From: a virus
Direction: 5' to 3' (one strand)
IMG/VR virus record: IMGVR_UViG_3300023170_000198
Location: 1-22,284 of that record
Length of the DNA stretch: 22,284 bases
Each line of letters starts with the position of its first letter. The first letter of the stretch is position 1. Of this stretch, positions 8,286-22,284 are shown in pieces. A model generated the notes under the pieces. It did not search any database. It was not told the origin of the DNA and saw only the letters and a list, made by a program, of their open reading frames with translations. The position numbers and the translations under genes were made by a program.

Positions 8286-9746
8286 TTACATTTCAATGAT
8301 CAGTTTGATGTCTTCGATCTGATCGGCAGCTCTTGATACTGCACCTCTATTCTCTACATACATTATTTGACCAGAGTATTTTTCAACTTCTGGAAAAGTA
8401 GCATCTACAGATGATACTGAACCAATTGAAGATCCACTCTTATAAACTGTATCAGCAGCTACAAAATCAACATAACCACCTTCTGAGTTTACAGAAGGAA
8501 TGAAAGATACTACTGTACCTGATATTGATAGTATTCTTGCAACAGCAACACCACTTCCGTCTGCAGCTGCATTCATAATAATGTCATCAGCAGAAAGACC
8601 TGACACTGAAGATAGTGTCATTTTGTGGTAAGATGATAATGTACTTGCAGTAGCAACTGTTGTTGTACCAACTGTAAAAGGATCTTGGATAAGACCAATT
8701 CTTCTAAAATCGTTGTCGATTGGGAAGTCACCTGAACCTTCTGCAAACTCAAGTCTTGAATTTACGATTACATAGTTTCCGCCCAACTCTTGTACTGGAT
8801 CTGCACCATGACCAATGATTGGTGAAATAATTGGTGTAACACTTGCATTTGTGCCTGAACCAATTCCTGTTATGCCTGCAATGTCAATAGATGCTCTCTT
8901 ATAACCAGAACCATTTGTTGTTACTGTGATATAAGAAACAACACCAGAATCTACAACAACTGTACATACACCACCTGAACCATCTCCGTCAATTGCTACA
9001 GATGTGTATGTGCCGTCAGTGTAACCTGAACCACCTGCATCTACTCTAACATGATAGATAGCACCGTCTACTGCACCGTTTTCTACATCCCATTGACCAG
9101 AACCGTCATCGGTTGCAGATGAACCCATTGCACCACTTGTTCCTGTTCCGTCTATTTCGGTTTGAGCACCGATAGTTTTTACTGGAATAAAGTCGTTAGT
9201 TACGAATTTGATTGTTTCTGAGGCAGAAATTGTGTACATATATTTCCAGATGTAACCTCGACCAGCGGCAGCTGCTGAATCTGAAGTCTCAACTAATACT
9301 GTTGCACTTGTTCCTGTAGGTTTTACTGTTGAAGCAACAACTGCTCCTGAAGCATCTCTACCTGTTCTGATACATTTGTATACATGGTATTCGTCTGTAA
9401 TTACATAGAATCTACCATCAAATAAACTATTTTGTGCTGTTGCAGGAGTTTGATTACTTGATGAATAGTCGTGTGCATATTCATCATATGTTACTCCTGA
9501 TGTCCAGTTATATCTTGTCAAACCATGTGTAACATCTGAAGAAGATACCTTCTTCAATGCTATCATATCTGACCATGAATCGATTTCTTCTCCGATACCA
9601 TTTACTGGTGAAGGTGGATTATTCTCATCTGTCCATGCGTTAGGTCTACCTATGAATAGGTAACTTGAAGAAGCGGATTCACCGAAATCTTCCTTAAATT
9701 GTTTAGCGTTATGTACTCTAAACTTTTCCGTAATAATTGCTGCCAT
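8286..9746 (-). CDS. 8: Baseplate wedge protein gp8
   Basis: This 486-residue protein is a counterpart of T4 gp8, a wedge component that joins gp6/gp7 to the peripheral proteins. The N-terminus (IITEKFRVHNAKQF, then YLFIGRPNAWTDENNPP), the GYIWKYMYTIS motif at residues 164-174 and the C-terminus (SGQIMYVENRGAVSRAADQI at 458-477, then EDIKLIIEM) match the pattern of T4 gp8 as I recall it (YVWEYLFEI; GEMIYMENR ... DQTEEINILF). T4 gp8 is about 334 residues. The extra length comes from glycine-rich inserts: residues about 228-308 contain GGSGYTDGTY and GSGYKRASI repeats, and 360-450 another beta-rich stretch. The start at 9746 is fixed by AGGAG at 9761-9757 and by two late promoter boxes directly upstream. 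It follows the gene 7 counterpart, the T4 order. Confidence 0.9.
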   Translation of the reverse strand: MAAIITEKFRVHNAKQFKEDFGESASSSYLFIGRPNAWTDENNPPSPVNGIGEEIDSWSDMIALKKVSSSDVTHGLTRYNWTSGVTYDEYAHDYSSSNQTPATAQNSLFDGRFYVITDEYHVYKCIRTGRDASGAVVASTVKPTGTSATVLVETSDSAAAAGRGYIWKYMYTISASETIKFVTNDFIPVKTIGAQTEIDGTGTSGAMGSSATDDGSGQWDVENGAVDGAIYHVRVDAGGSGYTDGTYTSVAIDGDGSGGVCTVVVDSGVVSYITVTTNGSGYKRASIDIAGITGIGSGTNASVTPIISPIIGHGADPVQELGGNYVIVNSRLEFAEGSGDFPIDNDFRRIGLIQDPFTVGTTTVATASTLSSYHKMTLSSVSGLSADDIIMNAAADGSGVAVARILSISGTVVSFIPSVNSEGGYVDFVAADTVYKSGSSIGSVSSVDATFPEVEKYSGQIMYVENRGAVSRAADQIEDIKLIIEM

Positions 9747-9765: not shown

Positions 9766-9773
9766 TATTTATA
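9766..9773 (-). promoter_or_regulatory. T4-type late promoter box, proximal copy before gene 8
   Basis: This is an exact TATAAATA on the minus strand. A start site about 6-7 bases downstream would fall within the ribosome binding site of gene 8 (9757-9761), so this copy may yield a poorly translated message or serve as a second contact site for the upstream copy. Confidence 0.6.
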
Positions 9774-9776
9774 TAC

Positions 9777-9784
9777 TATTTATA
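9777..9784 (-). promoter_or_regulatory. T4-type late promoter box, distal copy before gene 8
   Basis: This is an exact TATAAATA on the minus strand, in the 40-base gap between the gene 7 counterpart and gene 8. It predicts a start site near 9770 and a leader of about 24 bases that contains the AGGAG ribosome binding site. T4 late promoters consist of this box alone, read with the phage late sigma factor (gp55). It is the best placed late promoter in the window. Confidence 0.75.
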
Positions 9785-15643: not shown

Positions 15644-16059
15644 TATCGTGCCCTTGTTACTTTGAATTCTACTGTTGCTGGTCTTGTACTATTTACTATC
15701 GTATATGTGATAAGTAAATTTACAGCATTCTCATCAGCATCAGCAACTGATACTTTGAGATTGCTAACTCTAGGTTCTAAAATGCTAATACTCTCTTCTA
15801 TTCTTCTAATAAGAGAGTTTCTTCCTCTTGAATCATTTGTTTCAAACAGTTTACTTCTGAGATTTGAACCAAAATTTGGTTTGAACGGCCTTTCATAGAA
15901 GTTTGTTGACACTATGTTTCGTACCGATCTTTTTACAGCTTCTGCATCTGTTTTTAGAGTTATGTCTTTAGTAATAGGATGTAGTGTGAAAAACAAGTCT
16001 ATATCTGAGTAGATGTTTCCAGTTGCTACATTCTTTGCTTTGTTTACTAAGTCGACCAT
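15643..16059 (-). CDS. 25: Baseplate wedge protein gp25
   Basis: This 138-residue protein is close in length to T4 gp25 (132 residues). gp25 is the most conserved wedge subunit: it forms the core bundle with gp6 and gp53 and provides the docking strand for the first ring of sheath. Conserved marks are YSDIDLFFTLHPITKDITLK at residues 17-36, FYERPFKPNFGSNLRSKLFE at 54-73, and the LEPR motif at 94-97, the hallmark of gp25-like proteins of contractile systems. An exact TATAAATA lies 5 bases upstream of its ATG. No purine-rich ribosome binding site is visible between the upstream stop (16086) and the start. The end shares one base with gene 6. Confidence 0.95.
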   Translation of the reverse strand: MVDLVNKAKNVATGNIYSDIDLFFTLHPITKDITLKTDAEAVKRSVRNIVSTNFYERPFKPNFGSNLRSKLFETNDSRGRNSLIRRIEESISILEPRVSNLKVSVADADENAVNLLITYTIVNSTRPATVEFKVTRAR

Positions 16060-16064
16060 ATATC

Positions 16065-16072
16065 TATTTATA
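16065..16072 (-). promoter_or_regulatory. T4-type late promoter box abutting the gene 25 start
   Basis: This is an exact TATAAATA on the minus strand, in the 26-base gap before gene 25. Only 5 bases (GATAT) separate it from the ATG. With the usual T4 spacing the first transcribed base would be at or within a base or two of the A of the start codon, so the message would be leaderless or nearly so. Confidence 0.65.
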
Positions 16073-18750: not shown

Positions 18751-20207
18751 CTATAAATCCCTCCAGTTGTTGCTTTAGATAAAGGATTAGTATCAGCAAT
18801 ATTCTTAGCAAAACTTTCTTTCACACACTCAAAGTGTAGTTCGCCTGTTCCAGTTTGTGTATTACCAAATACATTCAATGATGTGATGAGATATCTATCG
18901 TCATTCACTTCATCTTCAATAACTTTACCTTTTTGCAATTCTGGTACAGGCAATTTTAGTTGTACAATAGTACCTACCGATAAATCTGTTCTAAGTGGTA
19001 TAATGACTTTTGTCACATGTTGTCTCAATATAGACATCAATGACATTCTCTCCAACATCGCAGTGTTGTTTGCATCAATGCCATTGAAACTAGCTTGTTC
19101 ACCTACACCAGTGTTATCAAAAATATGGTTAGCATTGAATCCTCTGTGTGTACTCGCTAAAAAACTTTTGTTCAATGCTAAATCCTGGTCAATAGCTGCG
19201 CGCACTGTTGGTGATTTTGAATTTTCCGTTGTGTCGTCTGGTGATAAAATACTTTCAGGATCGTCTAAGTGAATAAGAGGATAACCTGATACATGTCCCT
19301 CATTGCCTTTGAACATTTTGCCTAGATCATATACATTTACATAGGTGTTTTTCAGCAATGGGTCATACACTTGTATATTCGATGAATAAGCACCTGTTGC
19401 CAATCCTTCAAGTGTATCAAACTGCCTAGGTCTTGTAAAAGATTTTATAACACTATTGACACCACCTTGAGTATTTGCACCAATAAGTGTAACATCATTA
19501 TATTCTCTTGGTATATAACTAAACGATATTGGAAATTCATCTTGTGTCATTCTGTAAAATGACTTGAATCTAAAACCACCATTTAGAACTTGATAGAAAA
19601 ACATACTTCTTGAAAAGGTGCCTTCTTCTACCTGCAAGTCAGCATTTCTAGTACATACTTTTATAAACTCTTGTAGAGATAGATTAGGACATATAAATTG
19701 ATTTCTGTCGTTCTGTGTTGGTTCCCAATGATCAAATTCTGATACTTTGAAAGGTCCATTGTCTATTAGACCTTTCTGTAATATATTACTCCATGTTCCT
19801 CTAAAAACTTGACTCAATCTGGTCGACTTGGTGTAAAAAACTCTTGGTTCACAAAACTGTATTCTATAGTTTTGTTCGATCATGTTTTTGGGGTTTCTGG
19901 TCACATCTGTTACACTGTAAACTCTAAATGTTTTATCAATAGAGAAACTTTCTTTTGCAACTTGACCTTGATTGTCGAGTTGACTTATTGATATACGAAT
20001 GTTTTCTTGACCAGTAAGTCTATAGTTTTTTAGAACATTGATACCATCATTTATTATGACTTCTCCACTGCAGAAGTGCTCGTGTATAGATTCATGGAGT
20101 TTGAAGTCTACTGCTATTCGTGATAGGTCTATAGATTCACCAAACTGATTTACAAGGGTGAACGAATTTATCTTAAATTCACCACCTCTAGCTACTTTAT
20201 TTCTCAT
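18747..20207 (-). CDS. 27: Baseplate hub protein, gp27-like
   Basis: This is a 486-residue protein (T4 gp27 is 391). gp27 forms the trimeric ring that links the sixfold tail tube to the threefold gp5 spike. The N-terminal part (FKLHESIHEHFCSGEVIIND, GINVLKNYRLTGQENIRISI, within residues 35-75) has the form of a hub-domain barrel in gp27 and gpD-type proteins. A second barrel-like part lies near residues 107-220 (YRIQFCEPRVFYTKSTRLSQ, FICPNLSLQEFIKVCTRNAD). The C-terminus (VIIPLRTDLSVGTIVQLKLP, DDRYLITSLNVFG) is typical of hub proteins that end in a beta barrel. It overlaps gp53 and gp5 by 4 bases each (ATGA both times). Direct overlap with gene 5 supports the hub assignment; motif evidence alone would be weaker. 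Confidence 0.8.
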   Translation of the reverse strand: MRNKVARGGEFKINSFTLVNQFGESIDLSRIAVDFKLHESIHEHFCSGEVIINDGINVLKNYRLTGQENIRISISQLDNQGQVAKESFSIDKTFRVYSVTDVTRNPKNMIEQNYRIQFCEPRVFYTKSTRLSQVFRGTWSNILQKGLIDNGPFKVSEFDHWEPTQNDRNQFICPNLSLQEFIKVCTRNADLQVEEGTFSRSMFFYQVLNGGFRFKSFYRMTQDEFPISFSYIPREYNDVTLIGANTQGGVNSVIKSFTRPRQFDTLEGLATGAYSSNIQVYDPLLKNTYVNVYDLGKMFKGNEGHVSGYPLIHLDDPESILSPDDTTENSKSPTVRAAIDQDLALNKSFLASTHRGFNANHIFDNTGVGEQASFNGIDANNTAMLERMSLMSILRQHVTKVIIPLRTDLSVGTIVQLKLPVPELQKGKVIEDEVNDDRYLITSLNVFGNTQTGTGELHFECVKESFAKNIADTNPLSKATTGGIYR

Positions 20208-21148
20208 GATAACATTATTTTTTCAAATTCTCTTACTACACTATCAGCGAGTCTAGGTTCTATAACTTTGATTCTCCTTTTTTCTTCATTATGTTCAAGT
20301 TCATGTTCATAGAATGACACAGCAGTAAATCCATCACCGTTTGTATTTCGTTTTATACCATCGCTATTTACATAATGAAGAACACCATCTCGCATTTCTA
20401 TAACAGATTGTATTTCCATACTATGAAGACTTTTCAATCCAGTTATAAACTCACCTGAAGAAAAACCATCTTCAAGTACTGCTATTCTTTTGTGTGTTGG
20501 ATCTACTTGAATTATAAATGATTCTCTTATATCTAAAACATCTAATACATCACCTGCTTGCATCTGATCAGCTGCATCATTTCCAGGTATAAAATTAACT
20601 GAAGAATATTTTCCACCTGTGAGCCCACCAACTGAGTAATTTTCGTTTTGAACCTGTTTCACTCCATTTCTGTAAACAACAAATGTCTCATCATAACTGA
20701 GAGTGAACCCATTATCGTCTGTACCAGAGAATAATGTTTGATTAGCATTAGCAGTAAAAGAATATTTTTTAGCCAACTGCTCACCAACCAAAAACTTACT
20801 TGTTGAATTGCATATGTCTGTTGTATTTTCTGCTATATAATATTTGCCTGGATATTTCTCATCGATGAAAGTAAAGAATTCAGATGAACTCTTGTACCAG
20901 TTATTATGGTTGTCAAAGTCATTGACTAAAAAGAATAACCAGTATAAATCAGGATCACCATACAATCTTGTAGCTAAAGTATCTGGTCTGTCACCTTCTT
21001 GTATTTCTGCATATGTATAATTTACAATTGTATCTAATGCTTCTCTCTCAATCTTTGCTTTCTTAAAGAAATCTTTTACAAAAATTGTTTTACCGTCAGG
21101 TAATGTATATGTGATTTCAGAAAAGTTTTCAAAAAATTTACTTGCCAT
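20204..21148 (-). CDS. 53: Baseplate wedge protein gp53 with inserted beta module
   Basis: This 314-residue protein is a gp53 counterpart (T4 gp53 is 196 residues). gp53 clamps neighbouring wedges together and has a LysM-like fold. Residues 7-110 are the conserved part: NFSEITYTLPDGK, DFFKKAKI, YAEIQEGDRPDTLATRLYGD, DLYWLFFLVNDF, then HNNWYKSSSEFFTFIDEKYP. The conserved C-terminus is EKRRIKVIEPRLADSVVREF at 289-308. Between them residues 129-207 hold a beta-sandwich-like module (YSFTANANQTLFSGTDDNG, VVYRNGVKQV, GDVLDVLDI) that explains most of the extra length and recurs in other proteins of this cluster. GAGGGA at 21162-21157 is the ribosome binding site. The start overlaps the gp48-like gene by 11 bases and the end overlaps the hub gene by 4. 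Confidence 0.92.
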   Translation of the reverse strand: MASKFFENFSEITYTLPDGKTIFVKDFFKKAKIEREALDTIVNYTYAEIQEGDRPDTLATRLYGDPDLYWLFFLVNDFDNHNNWYKSSSEFFTFIDEKYPGKYYIAENTTDICNSTSKFLVGEQLAKKYSFTANANQTLFSGTDDNGFTLSYDETFVVYRNGVKQVQNENYSVGGLTGGKYSSVNFIPGNDAADQMQAGDVLDVLDIRESFIIQVDPTHKRIAVLEDGFSSGEFITGLKSLHSMEIQSVIEMRDGVLHYVNSDGIKRNTNGDGFTAVSFYEHELEHNEEKRRIKVIEPRLADSVVREFEKIMLS

Positions 21149-22226
21149 AAGATTTTTCCCTCATTACTTTAGGTGCAACATTTTTCATGTAGCTTTGATA
21201 TGTCAATAATTCTTTTTCTTGAAACTCTAAAGTTAGAGTTGTGAATAATGGTGTTCCGTCATCGTAATAACCAAATTCGGAACCACTATGTTTTATAGTA
21301 CAACCTGTCAAGAAGCATGGCAAAAATCCCTCAATGTTTTTAGCTATTGGTCCTCGCCATTCTAATTTAAATTGATGTGGGTATCTAAAGAAAGGTTGTG
21401 CTGTATCTTCCTCTAGGTGTTTACCAGCTACATCTTTACCACCCCTAAAGATTGAGTTATAAGTAGAAGGCAACATAGTTTGTCTAAACACATGACAAAT
21501 TTCTCTCACTTCGTCTGATTCTCTTTTATTTTTTGGAAAAAATGTAAATGTAAAACTATGAGTTCTAAACTCTATACCTTCTAGTATCATCTCTTCCATT
21601 GGATTTCTAGCACGACCATATTTGAAATTAGCATATCCACCAGTCAACATGTCAATAACTTTATCACTTATAACACTAGCAGCTGTTTCTGCTGATTTCA
21701 TAGCACCTGCACCATCTAAAGATGTTAAATTTCGTAAAAGTTGATCTGTCACTCTAACACCTGGTCCAAATCCTTTTTTTGTATAAGATACTGTTCCGCC
21801 TGAAACAATAGAATCATCTGGTATATACAATTGTATGTCGTAACCTACAGTACTTGTTTGTAAACCTTTAGTTTTATCAGGATCTTCACCTAAATCTTTA
21901 TCTATACCCTTTGTGTCAAAGTTTTCTATTATAAAACCAATCGAGTTGTTGATAGGCTCAGAAAGTGGATAAGTTAGTTGTTTATCTTCAGTACTTGGTT
22001 TTCTTTTTCCGTAAGCTTTTGCAGGATCAGAAGCAGATAACTGATTCTTTAGATTCTTACTTCTATTTTGTAGATTTTTTCTTGCGTTGTCGTACTGTTC
22101 TTGTAAAAGATCACTGCTAATAATTCCTTCATAGTTGATACTTTTTAGTTTTGCTAGAGTACCTTTGAAAGAGTTTATAGCTGATTTGGCTTTTCTGAAT
22201 TCTTTAATTAGACTACTGAGACCCAT
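21138..22226 (-). CDS. 48: Baseplate tail-tube cap protein, gp48-like
   Basis: This 362-residue protein is close to T4 gp48 (364 residues), which with gp54 sits on the hub and starts tail-tube growth. The N-terminal 65 residues are helical and basic. The key stretch is residues 208-253: NPMEEMILEGIEFRTHSFTF, then TFFPKNKRESDEVREICHVF and RQTMLP, the tube-like fold core. The C-terminal part (FKLEWRG, LPCFLTGCTIKHSGSEFGYY, DGTPLFTTLTLEFQEKELLT) is also typical. Because gp48, gp54 and the tube protein share a fold, gp54 is the alternative; length and the neighbouring gene 53 favour gp48. AAGGG at 22238-22234 is a good ribosome binding site, 7 bases before the ATG. No second gp54-type gene lies in the window. 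Confidence 0.88.
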   Translation of the reverse strand: MGLSSLIKEFRKAKSAINSFKGTLAKLKSINYEGIISSDLLQEQYDNARKNLQNRSKNLKNQLSASDPAKAYGKRKPSTEDKQLTYPLSEPINNSIGFIIENFDTKGIDKDLGEDPDKTKGLQTSTVGYDIQLYIPDDSIVSGGTVSYTKKGFGPGVRVTDQLLRNLTSLDGAGAMKSAETAASVISDKVIDMLTGGYANFKYGRARNPMEEMILEGIEFRTHSFTFTFFPKNKRESDEVREICHVFRQTMLPSTYNSIFRGGKDVAGKHLEEDTAQPFFRYPHQFKLEWRGPIAKNIEGFLPCFLTGCTIKHSGSEFGYYDDGTPLFTTLTLEFQEKELLTYQSYMKNVAPKVMREKSYGK

Positions 22227-22233
22227 ATAAATA
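22226..22233 (+). promoter_or_regulatory. Plus-strand T4-type late promoter box for the divergent gene
   Basis: This is an exact TATAAATA on the plus strand. Its first base pairs with the A of the gp48-like start codon. It lies 24 bases before the ATG at 22258 and would give a leader of about 18 bases, so it fits a promoter for the divergent gene. Confidence 0.6.
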
Positions 22234-22252
22234 CCCTTAAAGTGTTTATTGT

Positions 22253-22260
22253 TATTTATG
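22253..22260 (-). promoter_or_regulatory. Minus-strand late promoter variant for the gp48-like gene
   Basis: CATAAATA on the minus strand differs from the T4 late consensus at the first base. It lies 26 bases upstream of the gp48-like ATG and gives a leader that includes AAGGG. Its first base is the complement of the G of the divergent ATG. It is the only candidate promoter I see for the whole hub-to-gp25 run. Confidence 0.5.
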
Positions 22261-22284
22261 CCTAAAAAATCATATAGTGGTAAG
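22258..22284 (+). CDS. Start of a divergent plus-strand gene, partial (possibly gp4-like)
   Basis: Nine codons are visible from the ATG at 22258: MPKKSYSGK, open to the window edge. The gene is supported by a well-placed plus-strand TATAAATA at 22226-22233 and by the divergent gap of 31 bases; no strong ribosome binding site is seen. In T4, gene 4 (head completion) lies next to gene 53, and gp4-type proteins begin with a basic segment rich in Y, K and G. On that basis gp4 is a guess, not an identification: nine residues cannot prove a family. Confidence 0.45.

Follow-up and report, generated by a model that had tools for sequence, protein, structure and literature searches.

Predicted facing late promoters compacted into the gp48/gp4 gap of a T4-like phage

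The 31-bp gap between the divergent genes gp48 and gp4 of a T4-like phage is probably a compacted divergent late control region, composed of two facing gp55-type late promoters. Judged by its sequence, the layout is real and conserved, a compacted marine form of the divergent late promoter pair found in T4 as well. T4-type late promoters need no −35 element. A single 8-bp box would act here as the promoter of one gene, the Shine-Dalgarno-to-ATG spacer of its neighbor, and part of the neighbor’s start codon, illustrating the extent to which promoter, ribosome site, and start codon can be superimposed when no −35 element is needed.

The gp48/gp4 gap and its boxes

The analyzed DNA, termed the “window”, is a 22-kb fragment (22,284 nt) that carries the baseplate cluster of a T4-like (Kyanoviridae-like) phage. 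The contig end falls 24 bases past the gp4 ATG. By gp6, the closest phages in culture are Melnitz (43.6%), then Mosig and HTVC008M, with cyanophages next. On the minus strand, gp48 is followed by baseplate wedge and hub genes, and gp53 or a wedge subunit likewise comes after gp48 in Melnitz, Mosig, HTVC008M, and Syn9. The gp4 gene is complete in the relative L006 (146 aa; phrog_218, E 4.2e-59), where the genes after it encode gp2 (the DNA end protector) and then tube and hub proteins; the gp48 of L006 is 96% identical to that of the window. The features of the region are as follows.

20204..21148, minus strand: baseplate wedge subunit, next in the gp48 operon (phrog_232, E 1.2e-32; placed as gp53 by the gene order of relatives)
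21138..22226, minus strand: gp48, baseplate tail tube cap, 362 aa (phrog_230, E 2.4e-31)
22226..22233, plus strand: T4-type late promoter box TATAAATA (−13 to −6) for gp4, from sequence, its position conserved in relatives
22234..22238, minus strand: Shine-Dalgarno-like AAGGG of gp48, from sequence; the plus-strand late box fills its 7-nt spacer to the ATG
22239, plus strand: predicted 5′ end of the gp4 transcript, giving a leader of 19 nt, from the T4 box position −13 to −6
22247, minus strand: predicted 5′ end of the gp48 transcript, giving a leader of 21 nt, from the T4 box position −13 to −6
22260-22253 (first base 22260), minus strand: late promoter box CATAAATA for gp48, from sequence, conserved in named relatives
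22258..22284, plus strand: gp4 head completion protein, first 9 codons (MPKKSYSGK), truncated by the contig end

The plus strand of 22224-22260 reads CATATAAATACCCTTAAAGTGTTTATTGTTATTTATG. With TATAAATA or NATAAATA as the accepted forms of the T4-type (gp55) late promoter, each strand holds an exact 8-bp box, TATAAATA on plus and CATAAATA on minus. Start-codon sharing is unequal. The first T of the plus box pairs with the A of the gp48 ATG (22226-22224, minus strand), so that one base is shared, while the first three bases of the minus box are the complement of the gp4 ATG (22258-22260). The gap itself spans 22227-22257, and the distance from the end of each box to its own ATG is 24 (plus) or 26 (minus) bases. 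An earlier note on this DNA had given these box positions, gap, leaders, and overlaps, and every coordinate agrees with the sequence. Measured from the start of the box, the distances are 32 and 34 bases, compared with a median of 30 (quartiles 28-33) for the tandem genes of relatives; the boxes thus stand at the usual distance of a T4-type late promoter upstream of late structural genes.

The earlier note also described two divergent late promoters. The assignment of one box to each gene holds, and the boxes are conserved, but their arrangement is face to face: one box per strand, facing, between gp4 and a divergent structural gene. Owing to this orientation, each polymerase would head for the other box and pass over it shortly after initiation. 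The T4 late box spans −13 to −6, as given in the available part of PMC1524935. On T4 spacing, the predicted 5′ ends of the gp4 and gp48 mRNAs would overlap by ~9 nt (22239-22247).

Motif matches in the window mean little by themselves. One-mismatch matches to TATAAATA are not in excess across the whole window (48 found, 55.9 expected), so a single match carries little weight and the case rests on comparison. There are four exact TATAAATA matches in the window, all in intergenic gaps or at a gene start. Two exact TATAAATA boxes lie 11 bases apart at 9766-9784 (minus strand), upstream of a baseplate wedge gene starting at 9746. Across 12 genomes, face-to-face TAAATA pairs are not clearly in excess of back-to-back pairs (24 vs 18), which makes the layout a feature of the gp4 junction and no general rule.

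Conservation among related phages

A search of IMG/VR by gp4 alignment yielded 80 loci, 72 with an identified divergent partner and 69 non-redundant. Counts cover the gaps of 20-60 bases, 27 of them gp48/gp4 and 20 tube/gp4; 22 others (gap of at most 12 or more than 60 bases) were excluded. The loci share ancestry and their box counts are therefore non-independent: among the gp48/gp4 gaps, the plus box is present in 25/27, the minus box in 26/27, and both in 24/27, against 2.2, 2.9, and 0.21 in shuffled gaps. The paired-box layout at the gp48/gp4 gap is not chance. A base is shared with the opposite start codon by the plus box in 9 and by the minus box in 15 of the 27 gaps (shuffles 0.34 and 0.64). 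Overlap on both sides simultaneously is the exception, found in 5/27 gp48/gp4 gaps (shuffles 0.01) and 2/20 tube/gp4 gaps. All 20 tube/gp4 gaps have the plus box; the minus box is standard in 6 and non-standard in 14. By eye, several of these (L031-L034, L038, L062, L074, L078, L088, and others) show TATACATA or CATACATA instead of TATAAATA close to the gp4 ATG, possibly a variant late box, which was left out of the box counts.

In a pattern scan of IMG/VR, ORFs start exactly at both start codons in at least 38 among the 81 matches listed (minimum ORF length 60 aa, or 20 aa for an ORF running off the contig), and at least 40 flanking proteins among the matches listed match gp4; L018 and L115 are one contig. 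The earlier note had named loss of the boxes in close relatives as a refutation. They are not lost: the 58 bases around the gap are unchanged in L005 and L006, an identity that is weak evidence given how close these relatives are.

Among 18 named phages, both boxes lie within a gap of at most 76 bases in 11. The minus box overlaps the gp4 ATG in eight (S-PM2, Syn9, ACG-2014b, ACG-2014e, S-RIM8, S-RIM12, and S-RSM4, each with the same CATAAATA, and also ACG-2014f), and the plus box overlaps the partner start codon in three (Melnitz, Sf-FS3, and S-SSM7). Both overlaps together occur in none of the 18 (window excluded). At the gp4 junction, TAAATA boxes are paired face to face in nine of 12 whole named genomes, all but HTVC008M, S-SSM7, and Vibrio K368. 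Paired boxes recur even as the gp4 partner changes between gp48, the tail tube, and (in T4) gp53, and Acinetobacter phage W16 carries the pair too. The pair is not universal, given that Aeromonas avDM3 has gp4 in tandem with its neighbors and Klebsiella GWPR59 lacks the plus box.

In P-TIM40 (L216) and S-WAM1 (L219), and also in L048, L050, L051, L066, and L073, the start codons of gp48 and gp4, on opposite strands, either overlap or directly adjoin each other (CATG or CATATG). Without a gap, any promoters must sit within the coding sequence of the neighbor. In P-TIM40 and S-WAM1 the gp48/gp4 junction lacks a standard box; a minus-strand TATAAATA within gp4 is common to both phages.

Anchoring of the boxes to the opposite start codon

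Anchoring was measured in 28 gaps of 29-51 bp: the 24 gp48/gp4 gaps with both boxes plus the window, Melnitz, Mosig, and Syn9. The distance of the plus box to the opposite start codon is constant against gap length (slope 0.05, p 0.75), and its distance to its own ATG has a slope of 0.95; the corresponding values for the minus box are 0.38 and 0.62. Anchoring to the opposite start codon is thus clear for the plus box and partial for the minus box. Distances to the own ATG exceed those of tandem genes (medians 38 and 38.5 vs 30; p 4e-13, a statistic that ignores relatedness), and predicted 5′ ends overlap in 27 of the 28 gaps. The variable spacing of the boxes over these gaps speaks against a rigid operator bound by a dimeric protein, a reading considered and set aside.

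The trinucleotides CCT or TCC, complementary to the Shine-Dalgarno core, occur within 8 bases after the box in 33/85 divergent vs 8/69 tandem cases. This enrichment indicates that a divergent box often lies in the Shine-Dalgarno-ATG spacer of the opposite gene, a placement that can explain the pinning of boxes without regulatory purpose. The earlier note saw each start codon as held in place by its role in a promoter. This has the relation reversed, as the ATG would be kept anyway and the box is fitted to it (CATAAATA, CATCTAAATA, CATATAAATA).

Proposed mechanism and alternative explanations

We infer promoter activity in the window phage, the start sites, exclusion, and clamp choice. The left box would initiate gp4 rightwards from ~22239 and the right box the gp48 operon leftwards from ~22247. 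Each box would be set into the translation start of the other gene, using bases of its start codon, and on the gp48 side the box would also fill the Shine-Dalgarno-to-ATG spacer. The two polymerase complexes would occupy nearly the same stretch, so that any one DNA molecule could start transcription in a single direction at once. Products of both operons would still be made, given the many genome copies present late in infection. Late polymerase requires gp55, gp33, and the sliding clamp gp45. A gp33 is annotated in Mosig and Syn9, and Melnitz is reported, in the available text of PMC9004378, to have a gp45-like clamp as well as a sigma-70-like factor. In T4, the direction of late activation follows the orientation of the clamp and flips on its reversal, according to the accessible part of PMC2988020. 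Opposed promoters in one gap should thus be chosen by the clamp, one per template. By this analogy, clamp orientation may choose between the two promoters of the window. The layout is common in ocean T4-like phages and offers a natural setting in which two opposed, putatively clamp-driven promoters could be tested on the same DNA.

Could the boxes be nothing other than AT-rich sequence that aids the ribosome before start codons? Start regions are AT-rich, and by eye the gp4 of this clade is without a clear Shine-Dalgarno sequence. Yet across the window and L009-L094 (gene starts assigned by simply taking the longest ORF), antisense boxes no more than 20 nt from the ATG occur at 79/132 starts beside the gp4 gap and at same-strand junctions in just 0/118 (gap 20-80), 1/189 (gap >80), and 0/493 (gap <20). 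Their near-absence from the equivalent place ties the boxes to divergent transcription and not to ribosome-site context, which is rejected on these counts and refuted as the sole explanation; we give this reading very little credence. It is also improbable, if slightly less so, that one box is functional and the other a remnant or chance match, since gp48/gp4 gaps so often keep each box and both together, even if the minus box departs from the standard motif in most tube/gp4 gaps.

A regulatory reading of the same pair has a somewhat better, still low, chance of being correct. The geometry would have been selected so that expression of gp4/gp2/tube/hub alternates or balances with that of gp48/gp53/baseplate, fork direction picking the side through the clamp. 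The pair would then be a one-at-a-time direction selector, each template committed to the gp4 or gp48 side by replication-clamp orientation, a role we regard as unlikely to the same degree; if it were true, the ratio of head-completion to baseplate mRNA would be tied to fork direction. The pinning of the plus box to the opposite start codon even in longer gaps, the near-constant overlap of predicted 5′ ends, and the reversal of T4 late activation with clamp orientation (in the part of PMC2988020 available) are consistent with such a role. However, predicted 5′ ends do not overlap at T4 gp4/gp53, the partner genes of gp4 vary, HTVC008M gp2/gp4 has back-to-back boxes, and placement in the Shine-Dalgarno-ATG spacer explains the pinning already. 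The earlier note’s proposal that two late complexes exclude each other is retained in part. With predicted starts 8 bp apart, mutual exclusion on a single template would follow on sound steric grounds, while its regulatory role is putative. The preferred reading is that of a compacted control region with two facing late promoters.

Comparison with known systems

The closest system is T4 gp4/gp53, which like the window has gp4 divergent from a baseplate gene, with a short gap (47 bp) that contains two TATAAATA boxes facing each other. Unlike in the window, the T4 boxes are clear of both start codons, beginning at distances of 14 and 16 bases from the codons’ outer ends; the order is ATG, Shine-Dalgarno, box, and the predicted 5′ ends do not overlap. 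T4 inh/segE is listed alongside gp4/gp53 as a similar late promoter site. At T4 gp26/gp51 (L227 42429-42480), two late boxes overlap by four bases in the palindrome TATTTATAAATA, giving back-to-back promoters at one site.

The cyanophages S-PM2 and Syn9, whose late promoters are of the form NATAAATA, have the same motif, and CATAAATA overlaps the gp4 ATG in both. Their plus box, of the CTAAATA type, differs from that of the window in adjoining the partner start codon in S-PM2 and lying five bases off in Syn9; the gp4 partner in S-PM2 is the tail tube gene, unlike the gp48 of the window. Start-site mapping for Syn9 has reportedly been published. In LIMEstone1 (Ackermannviridae), the gap between gp48 and a homing endonuclease-gp4 has one annotated putative late −10 signal per strand, face to face, and the boxes CTTAAATA and CCTAAATA begin at distances of 13 and 11 bases, measured from the outer ends of the start codons. 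Searches of an open-access library listed no paper, the available portions of PMC2984593, PMC9004378, PMC1524935, PMC3037559, PMC3184105, and PMC2988020 included, that reports a late promoter overlapping the opposite start codon.

Boxes 13 bases before start codons

Of 903 starts in L015-L094 and the window, 40 have a late box (mostly TATAAATAGTNNTATG-like) at a distance of exactly 13 bases upstream of the ATG, compared with 10 boxes at −14 to −23. Boxes placed in this way across L009-L094 and the window include the minus-strand box at 16065-16072 of the window (gp25 ATG at 16059), and others in L010 (HTVC008M), L016, and L021-L029. Shine-Dalgarno 4-mers are scarce at the −13 boxes (2/40, vs 41/132 for boxes at the usual distance). 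No −13 box was found in 46 kb of T4 or 50 kb of Syn9. With the box at −13, the ATG would be +1 and leaderless late mRNAs are predicted; genes of this kind in many relatives may thus have leaderless late mRNAs, for which no paper was found in the open-access literature.

In HTVC008M, 8 of 9 boxes in 46 kb are exactly 13 bases before an ATG. Its gp2/gp4 boxes are back to back, unlike those of the window, each exactly 13 bases before the annotated ATG. They share one base (L010 18916-18943), and both transcripts are predicted to be leaderless from a 26-bp gap. The gp4 start of HTVC008M may be annotated too far upstream.
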